Shown here piece by piece: positions 2,650 to 62,569 of a stretch of DNA of 64,000 nt. The notes under the pieces are model-generated. The model was given only the letters and a program-made list of their open reading frames with translations, did no database searches and was not told where the DNA came from. This DNA is from Hymenobacter siberiensis. Lineage in GTDB: Bacteria; Bacteroidota; Bacteroidia; Cytophagales; Hymenobacteraceae. Position 1 is the stretch's first letter, and each line of letters opens with the position of its first letter. A program made the translations under genes and the position numbers. Location: contig NZ_JAHLZY020000001.1 of NCBI RefSeq assembly GCF_018967865.2, positions 1,302,001-1,366,000 of the forward strand, read 5' to 3'.

Positions 2650-2734
2650 TCATCCTGAGCGCAGCGAAGGACCTTATCACGGCTGAGTGGTACTCATTCA
2701 ATCGTGATAAGGTCCTTCGCTGCGCTCAGGATGA
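2650..2734. repeat. BIME-like palindrome, CATNNTGAGCGCAGC family
   Basis: Perfect 32-base arms (2650-2681 and 2703-2734) are separated by 21 bases. Each arm contains a small stem ATCCT...AGGAC around GAGCGCAGCGA. The element fills the gap between the acyl-CoA dehydrogenase and the SDR gene, within a co-directional cluster. Confidence 0.9.
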
Positions 2735-3503: not shown

Positions 3504-3504
3504 T

Positions 3505-3572
3505 GTAGCGCGGACTTTTAGTCCGCGACTCATTCCGTAACCCTTTACTCGCGGACTAAAAGTCCACGCTAC
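3505..3572. repeat. Palindrome, GTAGCGYGGACTTTTAGTCC family
   Basis: 24-base arms (3505-3528, 3549-3572) with one mismatch. Each arm contains its own hairpin GCGGACTTTTAGTCCGC. The element occupies almost the whole intergenic gap, starting one base after the SDR stop and ending three bases before the next ATG. Shorter relatives with a GGACT/AGTCC core are at 13871 and 14522. Confidence 0.88.
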
Positions 3573-3575
3573 ACT

Positions 3576-6059: not shown

Positions 6060-6169
6060 CGTCATGTCGAGCGCAGCCGAGACATCTCGCGTGCTCTCAC
6101 AAATCAATGACGTGGCAACGATTGGATTACTACCACACGCGAGATGTCTCGGCTGCGCTCGACATGACG
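6060..6169. repeat. BIME-like palindrome, CATNNTGAGCGCAGC family
   Basis: Perfect 34-base arms (6060-6093, 6136-6169) around a 42-base loop. Inside each arm a mini-stem ATGTC...GACAT encloses GAGCGCAGCCGA. This pair differs from other copies in a compensating way. Confidence 0.92.
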
Positions 6170-13901: not shown

Positions 13902-14012
13902 TTCCAAATCCGCAGAAAGCCGCTCAGGAGCCGTTTTACTTTTTAAGCACGCTAGTTAAAGCTATGCCCTTTAGGGCAAGACTTTAGTTGCTACTCACTT
14001 CCAGGCGTCGGG

Positions 14013-14020
14013 TACCTTTG
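14013..14020 (+). promoter_or_regulatory. Bacteroidota -7 box for tnpA
   Basis: TACCTTTG matches the Bacteroidota -7 consensus TAnnTTTG exactly, with a TTG 22 bases upstream (13988-13990). Only four bases separate it from the ATG at 14025, so a transcript starting here would be essentially leaderless. Confidence 0.5.
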
Positions 14021-14024
14021 TGAG

Positions 14025-14453
14025 ATGAAGCAGCGAACAGGCAGCCATTCGGTTCACAAGCTGGAAGTGCATCTGGTGTGGAGCACAAAATATCGCTACC
14101 AGGTGCTGACGGGGGATGTGCAACTGCGCTGCCGGGACTTGCTGCGTCAGACGTGTAACACGCTGGATGTGGGCATCTTGAAAGGGGTAGTGAGCAAAGA
14201 CCATATCCATTTGCACGTCTCGTATCCGCCCGCCTTGGCTGTGATCGAATTAATGCGTCGCTTGAAGGGACGCAGCGCCAAGTTGCTCTTGCAAGAGTTT
14301 CCCGAGTTGAAGCGGCGGTATTGGGGCGGTCATTTCTGGGGCATTGGCTACGGGGCCTGGAGTGTCGGTAACATCACAGACGAGCTACTCGAAGCGTATT
14401 TGAATCATCACAAGGACCAGCCCAATGGGGACGAGAATTTCATTCTGGAATAG
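14025..14453 (+). CDS. tnpA: IS200/IS605-like Y1 transposase TnpA
   Basis: 142 residues, the normal size for single-domain HUH (Y1) transposases. The HUH motif is in SKDHIHLHVS (His62-Leu63-His64) and the nucleophile is probably Tyr125 in LLEAYLNHH. These enzymes cut single-stranded DNA at hairpins and insert without target duplication. Related RAYT proteins act on REP hairpins. The gene is flanked by GGACT-core palindromes and the window is rich in REP-like elements, so a RAYT-like relation is possible. The protein itself looks more like IS200 TnpA. Confidence 0.9.
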   Translation: MKQRTGSHSVHKLEVHLVWSTKYRYQVLTGDVQLRCRDLLRQTCNTLDVGILKGVVSKDHIHLHVSYPPALAVIELMRRLKGRSAKLLLQEFPELKRRYWGGHFWGIGYGAWSVGNITDELLEAYLNHHKDQPNGDENFILE

Positions 14454-14968: not shown

Positions 14969-15220
14969 TCATGCTGAGCGGAGCCGAAGCATTTCTGCCG
15001 CAATGAAGTTGTTTAGAAAGTCCCCGAACGGTCATGCAGCGCGCAGCGAAGCATCTTGCTCGCATCGTCAGGCCCGTTCAACGATGCGAGCAAGATGCTG
15101 CGCTGCGCTCTGCATGACCGTTTGAGTACCTTTTGTGACTTTCTAAACAACTCCAACACTAAACCCCTTTCGATTGGATTACTCTTCGCGGTAAAGATGC
15201 TTCGACTGCGCTCAGCATGA
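14969..15220. repeat. Outer BIME-like palindrome, interrupted by a nested element
   Basis: Left arm 14969-15000 and right arm 15187-15220 (TCATGCTGAGCGNAGNCG...) belong to the common CATNNTGAGCGCAGC family, with a few mismatches. The loop holds a complete second element (15007-15152) with its own 16-base termini. Confidence 0.85.
15007..15152. mobile_element. MITE-like element, copy 1 (nested)
   Basis: Perfect 16-base terminal inverted repeats AGTTGTTTAGAAAGTC lie at 15007-15022 and 15137-15152. Inside are short unequal spacers and a large hairpin (15029-15120) of the CATGCAGAGCGCAGCG type. It carries no gene. A shorter, inverted copy is at 25211-25295. No clear target duplication is visible. 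Confidence 0.82.
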
Positions 15221-17906: not shown

Positions 17907-17978
17907 CTGTCATCCTGAGCTTGCGAACCGAAGGTCGGCGTAGCCAAGGACCTTCGGTTCGCAAGCTCAGGATGACAG
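17907..17978. repeat. BIME-like palindrome, CATCCTGAGC variant
   Basis: Perfect 30-base arms (17907-17936, 17949-17978) start CTGTCATCCTGAGCTTGCG. The variant shares TCATCCTGAGC with 2650-2734, but the inner part of the arm is different. Confidence 0.9.
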
Positions 17979-19540: not shown

Positions 19541-19777
19541 TCTGAACCACGGATTCACTCGGATTTTTCGAATTCCACGGATTTTGTGGACGATTCAGGC
19601 GAGCCAATCGGAACACCTAGAAGCCAAGTGCTCAGACGCGGTAAGTAAAAAGTGAACCACAAAAGTACGGCACGAAAAAGCCGCTCCGAAACCGGAGCGG
19701 CTTTCCGTTCACAAAATCTGTGGAATCCGAAAATTCCGGGCGAATCAAGGGATGGCGCAGCCAATCCGTGGTTGATA
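19541..19777. repeat. Imperfect long inverted repeat, TGAACCNCGGATT family
   Basis: The left part 19541-19590 (TCTGAACCACGGATTCACTC, then CCACGGATTTTGTGG) pairs imperfectly with 19710-19777. A terminator lies between the arms. The same family encloses 31571-31754. Confidence 0.7.
19674..19704 (-). terminator. Terminator
   Basis: AAAAAGCCGCTCC / GGAGCGGCTTT with a short GAAACC-type loop, downstream of the minus-strand gene ending at 19780. Confidence 0.85.
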
Positions 19778-24966: not shown

Positions 24967-25318
24967 GGCAGGGTTACAAATGAGCAAAAAACCGTTTGGG
25001 GGGCTGAAAATTAGTAATTTTTAAATGCCGAACGCCATGTGTCGGGCACAGCTTGGTCAATAATCCTCAGTCTTGCGGCTTTGTGCATGCCACAATCGTT
25101 CCTAAAATTCTATGGTGCCCCTTTTTAATGCCAGAAATGATGTTTTACCCATCTGAATTTTGTGTAAAATTCAGATGGGTAACTTGCAGAATTATTGCTT
25201 TTTATATTGGAGTTGTTTAGAAAGTCACAAAAGGTACTCAAACGGTCATGCAGAGCGCAGCGAAGCATGACCGTTCGGGGACTTTCTAAACAGCGTCATC
25301 TTCAGATTTCCTTCAGCG
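24967..25318. other. Non-coding stretch with a perfect hairpin and MITE copy 2
   Basis: No gene seen. A perfect 16-base stem (TTACCCATCTGAATTT and its complement) lies at 25145-25182 without a T tract, so it is not an obvious terminator. The MITE-like copy follows at 25211-25295, immediately downstream of the proline dehydrogenase gene. Confidence 0.7.
25211..25295. mobile_element. MITE-like element, copy 2 (internally deleted)
   Basis: AGTTGTTTAGAAAGTC opens the element, and GACTTTCTAAACAGC closes it. The first 50 or so bases match the reverse complement of copy 1 (15007-15152) exactly, as does the closing 30 bases. The inner hairpin has been lost, leaving CGGTCATGCAGAGCGCAGCG followed by AAGCATGACCG. 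Confidence 0.82.
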
Positions 25319-30795: not shown

Positions 30796-31639
30796 AATAG
30801 GCGGCCGATTTCAGCAAGCGGCTGCCGTACCAGCTGAACAATTCGCCGTCGACAATTTCAATTTTCGCGGCGGGGCATAGCTGCTGAAATTCAGCCACAT
30901 GCTTCGCCGCGAACGGATAGGGTTCCGACGAGAGGAAAATACGCTGCGGCGCTACTTGCGCCAGCTGCTCCGCGCTGACTTCGGGGTAGCGCCCTAGCCC
31001 GGCGAAGGCATTGGCAAAGCCCGCCCGGTGCAGCATGTCGTCGATAAAAGTGCCCGTGGCGGCCACCATGTAGGGTTTGCGCCAAATGAAATAGGCAACG
31101 GAAACAGGCGCCGCCGCGGAAGCGTCGGGAGTAGCCAAAGCAGCAAAAGATGCTGCAATGGTTTCGGCCAGCGTTGCGGCCTTTTCCTTCGCGCCGACAA
31201 TAAGCCCGACGCGCCGAATCATCTCCAGCGCCTCGGCCAGATTGCTGATATCGCTCAGCCAGACCGGGTAACTGGCAGCCAATTGCTCAATCCCCTCCTG
31301 GTAGTTCTCTTCTTTGTTTCCGATAATTAAATCGGGTTTCAGCGCGGCTATTTTCTCGAAATCAAAATTCTTGGTGCCGCCAATAACGCTGGCGTTCATG
31401 CGTGCCTCGGCCGGATGAATGCAGAACTTAGTTACGCCCATCACCTTCGCGCCCAGCCCCAAATCAAAGAGCAGTTCCGTTTGCGAAGGCACCAGCGACA
31501 CAATGCGCTGCGGCGGAAACGGCACCGCCACGCGCCGGTGCATCTGGTCGGTCACGTTGAGGGGAAGGTGTCTGAACCGCGGATTTATCGGATTGGTCGG
31601 ATTCATCGGATTTTGTGGCTGACTGTTAGTGGATGCCAT
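30779..31639 (-). CDS. Helical-backbone (BtuF/FhuD-like) substrate receptor without signal peptide
   Basis: 286 residues. Core features are RIVSLVPSQTELLFDLGLGA, then VGVTKFCIHP-like and LKPDLIIGNKEENYQEGIEQ, the first-lobe pattern of periplasmic cobalamin/heme/siderophore receptors, with SYPVWLSDI and RYPEVSAEQLAQVAPQRIFL in the second lobe. No signal peptide or lipobox is present. The first 28 residues (NPMNPTNPINPRF) are translated from an inverted repeat, so a start at the Met of MHRRVAVPFPP is likely. The cytosolic form may be a cobinamide or corrinoid-binding homologue. That role is uncertain. Confidence 0.8.
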   Translation of the reverse strand: MASTNSQPQNPMNPTNPINPRFRHLPLNVTDQMHRRVAVPFPPQRIVSLVPSQTELLFDLGLGAKVMGVTKFCIHPAEARMNASVIGGTKNFDFEKIAALKPDLIIGNKEENYQEGIEQLAASYPVWLSDISNLAEALEMIRRVGLIVGAKEKAATLAETIAASFAALATPDASAAAPVSVAYFIWRKPYMVAATGTFIDDMLHRAGFANAFAGLGRYPEVSAEQLAQVAPQRIFLSSEPYPFAAKHVAEFQQLCPAAKIEIVDGELFSWYGSRLLKSAAYFNQLP

Positions 31640-31754
31640 ACGCTATTAGCGAACATAAAAAGAAAAAGCCCGCGTCTGCGGGCTTTTTCTAGCTGATTTG
31701 TACCGGTGGATACTGAAAAATCGGCCACAAAATCCGATGAATCCGCGGTTCAGA
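31571..31754. repeat. Inverted repeat pair, TCTGAACCGCGGATT family
   Basis: The left arm (31571-31619) starts TCTGAACCGCGGATTTATCG and ends ATCGGATTTTGTGGC. The right arm (31724-31754) is its complement without an 18-base internal duplication. The right arm contributes the TGA stop (31750-31752) of the M42 peptidase gene, and the left arm codes the start of the receptor gene. A terminator lies between. Confidence 0.82.
31661..31690 (-). terminator. Terminator of the M42 peptidase gene
   Basis: AGAAAAAGCCCGC / GCGGGCTTTTTCT with a four-base loop, about 60 bases past the stop. Confidence 0.88.
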
Positions 31755-32820
31755 CAAAATACCGGAAGTCCTGCCCGTCCTCGATGCGCAGCAGCGTTTC
31801 GTAAATCAGGCGCGTCACGCTGTTCACGTCGTCCTTGTGCACGGTTTCGACGGTGGTGTGCATATACTTGAGGGGCAGCGAAATCAGGGCCGAAGCCACG
31901 CCCGAGCCGGAGTAGGCGAAGGCATCCGTATCGGTGCCGGTGGCGCGGGTGGCGGCGGCGCGCTGGAAGGGAATATCCGAGGCCTTGGCGGTGTCGATGA
32001 TGAGGTCGCGCAGGTTATTTTGCACGGCCGGGCCGTAGGTAATCACCGGGCCCTTGCCGCAGCTAATGTCGCCGGCCGTCTTTTTCTCATACATCGGCGA
32101 CTGGCTGTCGTGCGTCACGTCGGTGATGATGGCCACGTCGGGCTGGATGCGGTGGGCTACCATTTCGGCCCCGCGCAATCCGATTTCTTCCTGCACTGCA
32201 TTCACGATGTAGAGGCCGAAGGGCAGCGTTTTGTTGTTTTCCTTCAGCATGCGGGCCACCTCGGCAATCATGAAGCCGCCCACGCGGTTGTCGAGGGCGC
32301 GGCCCACGTAAAACTTGTCGTTCAGCACCGTGAATTCGTCCTCAAACGTCACCACGCAACCCACGTGGATGCCCATTTCGGCTACCTCGTCGGCACTGCT
32401 CGCGCCGCAGTCCAGAAACACCGTTTCGATGGTTGGGGCCTTGTCCTGCTCCACCTTGCGCACGTGGATGGCGGGCCAGCCGAAAATGCCCTTCACGATG
32501 CCCTTTTCGCCGAAGATATTGACGCGCTTGCTCGGGGCCACCAACGGGTCCGAGCCGCCGTTACGGCGCAGGTAGAGGTAGCCTTCCTTGGTGATGTAAT
32601 TCACGAAGTAGGAAATCTCATCGGCGTGCGCTTCGATAACGACTTTATACTTCGCATCGGGGTTAATCACGCCCACCACCGTGCCGTACGTATCCACGAA
32701 ATACTCGTCGATATACGGCTTGATGTACTCCAGCCACAGTTTCTGGCCTTCTTTTTCGAAGCCGGTGGGGGAGGGGTTGTTGAGGTAGCTTTGGAGGAAT
32801 TCGAACGACTCGGGACGCAT
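31750..32820 (-). CDS. M42-family metallopeptidase
   Basis: 356 residues, a cobalt/zinc aminopeptidase of the tetrahedral-complex type (glutamyl aminopeptidase/endoglucanase-like). Metal and catalytic residues are visible: His65 (EAHADE), Asp178 (ALDNRVGG), Glu211/212 (VQEEIGLRG), Asp234 (TDVTHDS) and a late His in YMHTTVETVH. Cytosolic peptide breakdown is the usual role. The ATG at 32820 is preferred because upstream residues derive from a palindromic repeat region. Confidence 0.93.
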   Translation of the reverse strand: MRPESFEFLQSYLNNPSPTGFEKEGQKLWLEYIKPYIDEYFVDTYGTVVGVINPDAKYKVVIEAHADEISYFVNYITKEGYLYLRRNGGSDPLVAPSKRVNIFGEKGIVKGIFGWPAIHVRKVEQDKAPTIETVFLDCGASSADEVAEMGIHVGCVVTFEDEFTVLNDKFYVGRALDNRVGGFMIAEVARMLKENNKTLPFGLYIVNAVQEEIGLRGAEMVAHRIQPDVAIITDVTHDSQSPMYEKKTAGDISCGKGPVITYGPAVQNNLRDLIIDTAKASDIPFQRAAATRATGTDTDAFAYSGSGVASALISLPLKYMHTTVETVHKDDVNSVTRLIYETLLRIEDGQDFRYFV

Positions 32821-32848
32821 TATGTAGGGAGTGTTATTAGGATTATAG

Positions 32849-32940
32849 AACGCCATGCAGAGCGCAGCGAAGCATCTTTACTGCAATAGTAATTAAATAG
32901 TATCGCAGTAAAGATGCTTCGCTGCGCTTTGCATGACGTT
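32849..32940. repeat. BIME-like palindrome, CATGCAGAGCGCAGC variant
   Basis: 36-base arms (32849-32884, 32905-32940) with two mismatches and a 20-base loop, lying between the M42 peptidase start and the carboxylase stop. Confidence 0.88.
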
Positions 32941-32954
32941 CAAAGAAGGGGATT

Positions 32955-34606: not shown

Positions 34607-34650
34607 AAAAGAACGTCATGCCTCGGCTGCGCTCGGCATGACGTTCTTTT
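34607..34650. repeat. Shortened palindrome of the CATGCC family
   Basis: AAAAGAACGTCATGCC / GGCATGACGTTCTTTT with a TCGGCTGCGCTC loop. It looks like an element that has lost its centre and now has terminator-like T runs just after the S9 peptidase stop. Confidence 0.78.
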
Positions 34651-36807: not shown

Positions 36808-37027
36808 CACAGAAAGAAAGATTAATTGAAAAAGAGGGCCCGAAAGTAACTTGTATACTACGATATTTTTACATGAATTATGCATGTGGGAGTTGTCGTA
36901 TGCGAGTAGGGCCTTTCGGTCCGACCGGGGCGTACAATTATTGCTGCACGAATATTTAAAGATGTCTTGCTGAGAAATGAGTTGGCCCAAACAACTGCTG
37001 CTGGACCCAAGCCGCCGGCAGTGGCTA

Positions 37028-41270: not shown

Positions 41271-41311
41271 GGGGCGTTCGGGCGGCGGCAGGAGGGCTTG
41301 GATAATGTAAA

Positions 41312-41418
41312 AGAACGTCATGCCGAGCGTAGCTGAGGCATCTCGCAGGGGGGAGAAATCCATCGATTGAGTTACTGCTGCCCGCGAGATGCCTCGGCTA
41401 CGCTCGGCATGACGTTCT
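41312..41418. repeat. BIME-like palindrome, CATGCCGAGCGTAGC variant
   Basis: 35-base arms (41312-41346, 41384-41418) with one mismatch. Mini-stem ATGCC...GGCAT inside each arm, again compensating relative to ATGCT...AGCAT and ATGTC...GACAT copies. It lies between the divergent-ended wbqC-like gene and the efflux adaptor gene. Confidence 0.9.
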
Positions 41419-41435
41419 ATTTGCTGACGTTGCTT

Positions 41436-42652: not shown

Positions 42653-42747
42653 GTCATGCTGAGCGCAGCCGAAGCATCTCGCTCGCATCGTTGCCATAAT
42701 CTTGATTGCTGCTGCACGCGAGATGCTTCGGCTGCGCTCAGCATGAC
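42653..42747. repeat. BIME-like palindrome, CATGCTGAGCGCAGCC variant
   Basis: Perfect 30-base arms (42653-42682, 42718-42747) around a 35-base loop, with mini-stem ATGCT...AGCAT. It lies inside the efflux operon between the fused pump and the adaptor. Confidence 0.92.
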
Positions 42748-49888: not shown

Positions 49889-50039
49889 CCCCTGCCGGGC
49901 TGCGGAGAGGGGACACCGGTTCGGGTAGACAAAAACAAAAAGGGTCCAACGCACTGCGTTGGACCCTTTTTTTGGAAAAATTTGTCAGAAGCCAATCCGG
50001 TTCCTCCTCTCCGCAGGAGAGCGGGGCAGGGGGTGAGGT
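49875..50039. repeat. Imperfect inverted repeat, ACCTCACCCCCTG family, enclosing a terminator
   Basis: ACCTCACCCCCTGACCCC at 49875 pairs with GGGGCAGGGGGTGAGGT at 50023-50039, and inner parts (GCGGAGAGG and CCTCTCCGC) also pair. A strong hairpin terminator occupies the centre. The same outer sequence forms the perfect palindrome at 62514-62569. Confidence 0.78.
49937..49973. terminator. Bidirectional terminator
   Basis: AAAAGGGTCCAACGCA / TGCGTTGGACCCTTTT with a tight loop and T runs on both strands. It serves the convergent acyltransferase and tsaC genes. Confidence 0.93.
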
Positions 50040-51992: not shown

Positions 51993-52103
51993 AGAACGTC
52001 ATGCAGAGCTTAGCATCTTGCCCGCAGTTACTAATCCATGACGCTTTTACGATTTATTAGTGGTGGCGGGCAAGATGCTTCGCTGCGCTCTGCATGACGT
52101 TCT
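51993..52103. repeat. BIME-like palindrome, CATGCAGAGC variant with a deletion in one arm
   Basis: The right arm 52066-52103 reads in reverse AGAACGTCATGCAGAGCGCA and onward. The left arm 51993-52025 matches except that about five bases (around GCGAA) are missing. The asymmetry breaks the inner mini-stem on one side only, useful as evidence of decay. Confidence 0.85.
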
Positions 52104-55647: not shown

Positions 55648-55660
55648 TAAGTAAGATAGT

Positions 55661-55727
55661 TGCGAAGCGGTGCTTCGCAAATCTACTGAATGCAATGATG
55701 CGAACGTTTGCGAAGCACCGCTTCGCA
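55661..55727. repeat. Palindrome, TGCGAAGCGGTGCTTCGCA family
   Basis: Perfect 21-base arms (55661-55681, 55707-55727). Each arm is itself a hairpin TTGCGAAGC-GGT-GCTTCGCAA. It lies just outside the IS630 fragment. No second copy was seen in the window. Confidence 0.88.
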
Positions 55728-55740
55728 GCTACTGCTCACA

Positions 55741-62105: not shown

Positions 62106-62516
62106 GTGGCCAAAACTGCCACGCCCGAGCAGCAGCAGCGAATGGCTGCCATGCAGGGCCGGAAGCATGAGCGCGGCGGCCTGCGCCGCTTCTTCAAGCC
62201 CGCCGCGTTCCTGCTGCTGGACCCCAATGCCCCCGCTGCCAACAAAAATGAACAGGGCGTAGGCAATACCAGCTTCTACCCCAACCCCGCCGCGCCCACC
62301 AGCCAGCTCGACTACGACGTGCGCAAAACCGGCCCCGTAACCATCGACCTGCTCGATAAGGACGGCAATAAGCTGCGCACCCTGGTATCGGAAGCCAGCC
62401 AGGAAAAGGGCCCGCAAACCCAGCAGCTTGATTTGCACGACGTGCCGGCCGGTACGTATTTCTACAAAATCACCACCAAAGGCGGTACCCAGACCAAGCG
62501 CTTTTTAAAGGAATAA
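62106..62516 (+). CDS. C-terminal half with a type A T9SS sorting domain, same frame as the upstream half
   Basis: 136 residues from a GTG (62106). Most of it is linker (KHERGGLRRFFKPAAFLLLD) followed by a full sorting domain: FYPNPAAPTSQLDYDVRKTG, VTIDLLDKDGNKLRTLVSEA, LHDVPAGTYFYKITTKGGTQ and KRFLKE. Without a signal peptide of its own it cannot reach the T9SS, so it makes sense only joined to the preceding frame. The TAA stop is the first three bases of the palindrome at 62514. Confidence 0.8.
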   Translation: MAKTATPEQQQRMAAMQGRKHERGGLRRFFKPAAFLLLDPNAPAANKNEQGVGNTSFYPNPAAPTSQLDYDVRKTGPVTIDLLDKDGNKLRTLVSEASQEKGPQTQQLDLHDVPAGTYFYKITTKGGTQTKRFLKE

Positions 62517-62569
62517 CCTCACCCCCCGGCCCCCTCTCCCCAAGGAGAGGGGGCCGGGGGGTGAGGTTA
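62514..62569. repeat. Perfect palindrome that supplies both neighbouring stop codons
   Basis: 26-base arms (62514-62539, 62544-62569) are perfect, with loop CCAA. The first three bases (TAA) are the stop of the plus-strand T9SS gene. The last three, read on the minus strand (TAA), are the stop of the minus-strand tolC-like gene. Confidence 0.95.

Follow-up and report, generated by a model that had tools for sequence, protein, structure and literature searches.

The window analyzed here (64,000 nucleotides; bases 1302001–1366000 of contig 1 of a 4.83-Mb Hymenobacter genome, referred to as G000) contains a family of scattered short DNA hairpins that are mostly arranged as mirror pairs between genes and occur far above chance. 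They are a new Hymenobacter version of the known CGTC-tagged REP superfamily, with a stem, loop and tail of their own. Each arm consists of a (C/T)GTC tag, a five-pair stem that starts with AT and may have any sequence that leaves most positions paired, a core, and a CT tail. The family most likely consists of CGTC-superfamily REPs in the form of head-to-head dimers that spread as units, probably through a trans-acting HUH/Y1 enzyme, with a minor route through MITEs.

The pattern CATNNTGAGCGCAGC matched the window 17 times when up to two mismatches were allowed (shuffled sequence: mean 2.94, maximum 8) and, at no more than one mismatch, matched the whole genome 399 times, compared with 4 for the reversed pattern. 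A previous sequence-only reading of the window had proposed that at least ten elements share a core. The family is indeed abundant, but no more than 4 of the 17 window matches (arms at 2651, 2719, 42655 and 42731) carry the 15-mer core unchanged, the remaining matches having one or two changes; core matching also recovered a copy at 25247 that was absent from the earlier list. A single-arm detector, defined as TCA[TC], a 5-bp stem with at most one mismatch and a GAG...GA loop, found 82 arms in 864 kb of the genome. A looser form with a GA...GA loop, to which the reversed-sequence control was applied, found 96 arms in the same 864 kb and 2 in the reversed sequence. The loop motif is present in 61/61 Hymenobacter genomes at 13 to 437 matches each (reversed pattern, 0 to 19). 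The REP pattern occurs in 53 of 198 Bacteroidota genomes, a count that includes G000 and two other Hymenobacter genomes, with zero control matches in each.

Nine arm pairs in the window were also recovered independently as inverted repeats of 82–100% complementarity. Head-to-head dimers, none assigned to a strand, are located at 2650–2734 (CGTC-type REP arms; stem ATCCT/AGGAC, loop GAGCGCAGCGA), 6060–6169 (stem ATGTC/GACAT; arms of 34 nt, 100% complementary), 32848–32941 (stem ATGC/GCAT, A-A at the position adjoining the loop), 41309–41421 (stem ATGCC/GGCAT), 42653–42747 (stem ATGCT/AGCAT) and 51993–52103 (stem ATGC/GCAT, one arm shortened). The earlier description of each element as two arms does not fit the element listed at 34607, which is a single double-foot REP (34618–34641, minus strand; AACGTCATGCC...GGCATGACGTT), a hairpin with its 5′ flank mirrored 3′. 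The elements at 14969 and 15029 had been taken as separate and turn out to be one nested structure (unstranded throughout): an inner REP pair with degenerate loops (15033–15116; core matches, inverted repeat at 15017–15132) lies within a MITE-like element (15005–15154; inverted ends GAAGTTGTTTAGAAAGTC and GACTTTCTAAACAACTCC), which itself sits in the spacer of an outer head-to-head dimer (14969–15220; stem ATGCT/AGCAT). A second MITE-like element of 89 bp (25209–25297, unstranded), identified by arm and MITE-end detection, carries a double-foot REP at 25246–25268. The perfect inverted pair of 30 nt at 17907–17978 (unstranded), previously listed as an ordinary family member, is only related; its TGTC tag is followed by ATCCT and its loop differs from those of the other elements.

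Repeats of other kinds are also found in the window. Palindromes of CCTCACCCCC type lie at 49900–50016 and 62514–62569. Inverted repeats at 19552–19746 and 31569–31756 have CGGATT-type arms around a hairpin resembling an intrinsic terminator.

The mini-stem inside the arm had been noted to change in concert on its two sides, and the stems ATGTC/GACAT, ATGCC/GGCAT, ATGCT/AGCAT and ATCCT/AGGAC are all seen as claimed in window arms. Pairing is incomplete in some arms; ATGCA...AGCAT places A against A beside the loop, and ATCCT/AGGAC is without the outermost pair. A search by the loop alone gave 62 sites in the 864 kb, with the stem types GCA/AGC (18), GCT/AGC (11), GCC/GGC (7), CCT/AGG (6), GTC/GAC (4) and TCC/GGA (4), plus rarer ones. 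Among these sites, whole-stem pairing is high in register 0 only, single positions being high in other registers as well. In loop-found arms the two outer AT pairs form in 93% and 73% of the 30 whose loop is 11 nt long and in 87% each of the 31 whose loop is 12 nt long; the TCAT-anchored arms described below are not independent for the AT start of the stem because TCAT served as the anchor.

Covariation of the three inner positions was evaluated on arms anchored by TCAT and the loop, the 3′ half of the stem being unused in choosing them. This set of 98 copies, which drew on 129 loci of relatives with near-duplicates of the own genome left out, contains 31 distinct arms; of the 93 cells formed by their 5′ and 3′ triplets, 80 are paired (1000 shuffles: mean 65.4, maximum 73). 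The own genome alone gives 59 of 66 paired cells (shuffle maximum 57), and the relatives alone give 38 of 45, a value also reached by the best of 1000 shuffles. Mutual information is 0.99 bit at the outermost free pair, 0.52 at the loop-closing pair and 0.14 at the little-varying middle pair, the highest off-pair value in the same set being 0.54. A second set from other Bacteroidota, taken from the matches listed with Hymenobacter genomes left out, comprises 63 arm rows from 28 genomes and pairs in 165 of 189 cells (5000 shuffles: mean 121, maximum 137). Its outer free pair is TA in 37 rows, AT in 9, CG in 7, GC in 6 and other in 4, and full three-position pairing is found in 9 of 24 distinct stem types among those matches. 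The compensated changes separate subfamilies, and the shuffles used as a control ignore the tree, so that subfamily structure contributes to the signal. Triplet pairing exceeds every shuffle both in the pooled arms and in the 28 Bacteroidota genomes, which bears out the proposal that the small hairpin itself is conserved; covariation is thus not confined to the two arms of the large palindrome.

The arm loop reads GA-GC-GNA-GC-(C)GA and includes GCGNAGC, a DNA mini-hairpin of very high stability. According to PMC4686876, DNA hairpins in which two or more G-C pairs close a GNA loop, for instance GCGAAGC, are extraordinarily stable. In the chosen arms the core GAGCGNAGC(N)GA was fixed by the search design, and its free base is C in 64, G in 19, T in 8 and A in 7 of the 98 Hymenobacter copies, whereas outside Hymenobacter it is A in 37, G in 12, C in 7 and T in 7 of the 63 rows among the matches listed. 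When arms were picked by the outer stem and GA...GA only, GC/GC surrounds three bases in 52 of 84, the commonest triloops being GCA (23), GAA (16), GGA (9) and GTA (8). Other inner pairings in these 84 arms are GC/GT (9) and AC/GT (5), and GGC/GCC forms that keep the inner pairing occur elsewhere; inner pairs form in 139 of 168 cases, little more often than in shuffles (mean 129, maximum 139). Other loops, such as GAGCTTGCGA, are also found among arms. The 98 arms carry the tag CGTC (54), TGTC (28), GGTC (10) or another (6), and 79 of them have the tail CTC (45) or CTT (34). Folding energies are not above those of shuffles for single arms as DNA (five sequences, z −1.15 to 0.22) or as RNA (four sequences, z −0.61 to 0.63), and the energy model predicts an alternative hairpin for two of the five DNA arms. 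The core would form G-A pairs beneath two G-C pairs capped by a GNA triloop, and presumably folds this way in the cell. That the GCGNAGC core is nearly invariant and the stem free to vary suggests that the arm is recognized as folded single-stranded DNA.

The arms are combined in a single orientation. The 864 kb contain 23 head-to-head dimers, no tail-to-tail or head-to-tail dimers and 36 unpaired arms, with 37–59 nt between the detected arms of a dimer. The suggestion that two mini-hairpins in mirror order represent the REP/BIME layout is borne out by all 23 detected dimers. Both arms have the same stem type in 19 of the 23 (chance 0.19), and a double-foot form, in which the foot is mirrored on the 3′ side, accounts for 9 of the 82 arms. 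Elements resembling whole window dimers together with their spacers recur across the genus among the matches listed, including those resembling 41309–41421 over ∼113 bp and those resembling 42653–42747 over ∼107 bp, the latter at 78–91% identity. Direct motif clusters in two other Bacteroidota genomes were read as repeated copies. In another Bacteroidota genome a region (L292, 3576–3995) has three tandem 140-nt units with a REP of this family beside a hairpin that has a longer CGTC-type stem.

The arms lie predominantly outside genes, with 77 of 82 in gaps between predicted genes. According to the gene predictions made in this analysis, arms are held by 43 of 455 tandem, 4 of 123 convergent and 8 of 104 divergent gaps. 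Among non-divergent gaps of at least 80 nt, an intrinsic terminator is present in 6 of 42 REP-bearing and 82 of 357 other gaps, indicating no significant exclusion (p = 0.24). At gathering scores Rfam gives no match for the REPs and only two tRNAs in the window.

A second genome of the same species, G029, aligns with G000 in blocks that are mostly ∼99% identical. Starting from G000 sites only, 10 of 17 orthologous REP elements differ between the two strains, mostly by single changes and in one case in the flank only; no free REP dimer among the 17 changes between presence and absence in the compared stretches. Three of the changes, as read by eye from the alignments, fall in the mini-stems of detected arms. 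Two break a pair and one converts G-C to G-T, and none of the three is accompanied by a matching change; a fourth change lies in the shortened arm at 51993. From these comparisons we conclude that pairing is needed in the copies that spread and is not kept copy by copy later. In a dimer adjacent to a RAYT gene, the G000 3′ flank GACCGT complements its own 5′ flank, and G029 has normal dimer sequence; this one case fits copying from the other side of the hairpin rather than a central deletion. The two strains also differ at other repeats. At one site each strain has a long palindrome of its own, neither of them from the CGTC REP family (L048 14226–14314 versus L095 8617–8485), a 116-bp insertion with inverted ends (TAGGACTTACGCA...) is present in G000 and absent from G029 (L047 11339–11456), and a 10-bp tandem repeat at window position 713 (AGCGGCAGCC) differs by five units.

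The genome G019, from a related species, aligns with the window over 11.4–54 kb with a block identity of 74–91%. Inspection by eye of 18 block breaks, a few of which lie inside genes (4 breaks longer than 420 nt were skipped), found a palindromic element in both genomes at 9, in the window only at 2, in G019 only at 2 and in neither at 5. At 7 of the 9 doubly occupied breaks the element of one genome is from another family or REP subfamily than that of the other genome. The sites are shared and their occupants turn over, which is most simply explained if those gaps are tolerant. The G019 spacers are too diverged for the target sites of the REPs to be read. At one shared site a CCTCACCCCC-type palindrome replaces a REP dimer.

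These placements also bear on the possibility that the hairpins act as RNA, being terminators or mRNA-end stabilizers selected at each site between genes. The intergenic location of most arms, the co-oriented genes around most REP-bearing gaps, and the palindromes of other families that hold several of the same sites in G019 would all agree with such a role. It is nevertheless unlikely, given the few occupied convergent gaps relative to divergent ones, the lack of significant exclusion between REPs and intrinsic terminators, the uncompensated strain differences in the mini-stem and the lack of an Rfam match. The spread of head-to-head dimers as DNA units is the better reading.

Nine Y1-type matches are listed in the own genome, comprising four IS200 copies (L001–L004), the RAYT-like L006, L007 and L009, and another two; an additional RAYT copy, interrupted by a stop codon, is located at C1:4147047. 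L006, L007 and L009 score 99.4, 77.5 and 51.8 bits, respectively, against the NCBIfam model REP_Tyr_transpos, and L006 alone passes because the cut-off is 80 bits. One of the four IS200-type transposase genes lies in the window (13959–14453, Y1 domain 14049–14408) and was rejected as the source of the REPs, since the other three IS200-type copies are without an adjacent REP. No flanking hairpin of the CGTC REP kind was found at L001, L002, L004, L005 or L008. L006 is flanked by CTTTCGGAGT-type hairpins and L007 on both sides by GTAG-type hairpins of another family. The copy at C1:4147047 is surrounded by a GTAGTTGCGAAGC-type (GTAG-type) hairpin family, with no CGTC arm in 4 kb. The window itself contains a GTAG-type REP dimer at 3504–3573 (TGTAGCGCGGACTTTTAGTCCGCGA and its mirror), of the family that flanks L007, and at 55657–55731 a hairpin pair, TAGTTGCGAAGCGGTGCTTCGCA, that resembles the family around the broken RAYT copy.

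The search was extended to 17 genomes picked mostly for REPs, three of them Hymenobacter, and 15 of these gave 38 Y1 matches. Thirty were fetched with 1.5-kb flanks (three flanks shorter; 8 of the 38 left out), and none of the 30 has a REP arm within 400 nt, one arm-like match at L270 being 400 nt away. Two genomes (G126 and G152) have 5 and 6 REP pattern matches and no Y1 match. Among the Y1/RAYT genes of the own genome and those fetched from REP-bearing genomes, none has CGTC REPs on both sides. No resident transposase gene could be linked to the REPs.

A candidate for a dedicated enzyme of the CGTC REPs is the L009-type RAYT. In the species of the window a REP dimer begins a few nucleotides past the L009 stop codon. 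L009-type proteins keep HUH and Tyr in 13 aligned members, and their records come from Hymenobacter, one Hymenobacteraceae MAG and one Solirubrum. Loci of this type hold 25 arms in 103 kb (reversed control, 0), compared with 7 in 107 kb at L007-type loci (reversed control, 3), and the ten genomes with the closest relatives (at least 77% identity) have 88 to 437 loop matches. The excess of arms within 200 nt of the 3′ end is only nominal, however (12 of 60 loci versus 26 of 220 other genes; Fisher p = 0.08), and arms at the 5′ end are found at 2 of 60 versus 22 of 152 other genes. Seven genomes with relatives of 69–73% identity contain 13 to 159 loop matches, the copy-number trend is confounded by the closeness of the relatives, and two genomes without L007- or L009-type relatives at E 1e-5 (G003 and G057) still have 82 and 145 loop matches. 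The L009-type RAYT was rejected as the dedicated enzyme in view of the non-significant 3′ excess, and we regard that role as rather improbable.

Some REPs are carried by small elements whose ends are shared with an insertion sequence. The element at 15005–15154 has its ends in common with an insertion sequence of the IS5 family, 915 bp long, in G029. This long form contains an ORF of 276 aa that matches Pfam DDE_Tnp_1 and scores 134.7 bits against the NCBIfam IS5 model NF033580 (cut-off 110). A loose detector for the ends GAAGCTGTTTAGAAAGTC and GACTTTCTAAACAACTCC returned 16 elements in the own sample and 14 in the G029 sample, a few of which overlap, with identical 3-bp flanks in 6 and 7 of them (13 of 30). 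In a stricter scan, 12 of 13 own-sample elements hold TCATGC or GCATGA. G029 has an 89-bp copy whose REP core is degenerate, and the corresponding site at window position 36875 is without it. Elsewhere in G029 (L089 16848–16936), a hairpin belonging to the L006-flanking family contains a REP-bearing MITE. A 1.2-kb insertion sequence considered as favouring REPs was dismissed, a REP being near only 1 of its 8 copies. A reading of the family as mainly a DDE-transposon MITE that an IS5-family transposase moves, with the REP only as cargo, would account for the matching inverted ends, the identical flanks, the internal motif and the insertion that differs between strains, but is very improbable, given that 5 of 82 detected arms lie inside such elements (degenerate-loop cores there being uncounted) and that the REP is found in other families of the phylum.

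The BIME-like interpretation in the sequence-only reading was right, and the kind is one already described. The CGTC-tagged REP superfamily was defined by Di Nocera, De Gregorio and Rocco in 2013 and reported in Bacteroidetes, with a terminal tag that may be CGTC, TGTC or CCTC and apparently without a dedicated transposase (PMC3733652); Hymenobacter is absent from the main text of that paper. The repeats as described there resemble the Hymenobacter family in the unpaired CGTC/TGTC tag, the stem starting with AT, the dominance of head-to-head dimers with tail-to-tail ones rare, the complementary stem changes between subfamilies, the intergenic location and the absence of a linked transposase. 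They differ in having stems of 8–9 bp with loops of 4–5, compared with 5 bp, a GA/(C)GA mismatch, 2 bp and mostly a GNA triloop here; in a 3-nt tail that is mostly CCA, where Hymenobacter arms have CTC/CTT; and in lying mainly in unidirectional and convergent gaps, few convergent ones being occupied here.

The GTAG-tagged REPs and BIMEs associated with TnpA-REP/RAYT genes (REPtrons) share with these repeats a tagged imperfect hairpin, a stem mismatch, mirror pairs and a CT beside the hairpin; they have another tag, and their RAYT is flanked by the REP on both sides, whereas none of the examined RAYT genes here is flanked on both sides by CGTC REPs. The E. coli BIME consists of pairs of GTAG-tagged PU units with IHF or gyrase sites. 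Its mirror pairs are shared with Hymenobacter, in which the tag is not GTAG. IS5-family MITEs are alike in the short inverted ends in common with the 915-bp insertion sequence and in the 3-bp flank repeats of some copies, and differ in that the Hymenobacter ones carry a REP or REP dimer inside. TnpA-REP classes and their recognition are described in PMC6006769 and PMC8266576, and the E. coli enzyme is described in the latter as cleaving at the CT adjoining the REP and requiring the stem mismatch. The double-foot REPs described as subclass 2.4 in PMC6006769 have a mirrored 3′ foot as some Hymenobacter arms do, but that foot is GT[AG]G rather than GTCA/TGAC. Hymenobacter is also absent from the main text of a survey of REPs (PMC12306157), and a literature search of partial coverage found no paper on Hymenobacter REPs.

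The likely course of events is as follows. By analogy with TnpA-REP and GTAG REPs, an HUH/Y1 enzyme acting in trans would recognize the arm as single-stranded DNA, and the element of ∼85–115 bp would spread between genes as a unit, the recurrence of whole dimers being consistent with transposition of this kind. In a minor second route, suggested by the composite element and by one strain-specific insertion, the REP may be carried in a small element with ends common to an IS5-family insertion sequence and probably mobilized by the IS5-family transposase. Copies would drift once inserted.

A wider generalization is offered tentatively. The repeats could belong to a REP class that extends across the phylum and conserves, instead of the stem, a DNA-specific GNA mini-hairpin over sheared G-A pairs in tandem. 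This unit would be read by a single-stranded DNA enzyme that acts in trans and does not accompany the repeat as it moves; members of the class might also be captured as cargo by DDE-type MITEs. The 2013 survey left the movement of CGTC REPs open because no transposase gene was linked to them. In Hymenobacter these REPs are abundant and are found alongside several RAYT types, the majority of which have other hairpins of their own. With such an abundant family, coexisting RAYT types and two strains of one species, the candidate movers become directly testable.
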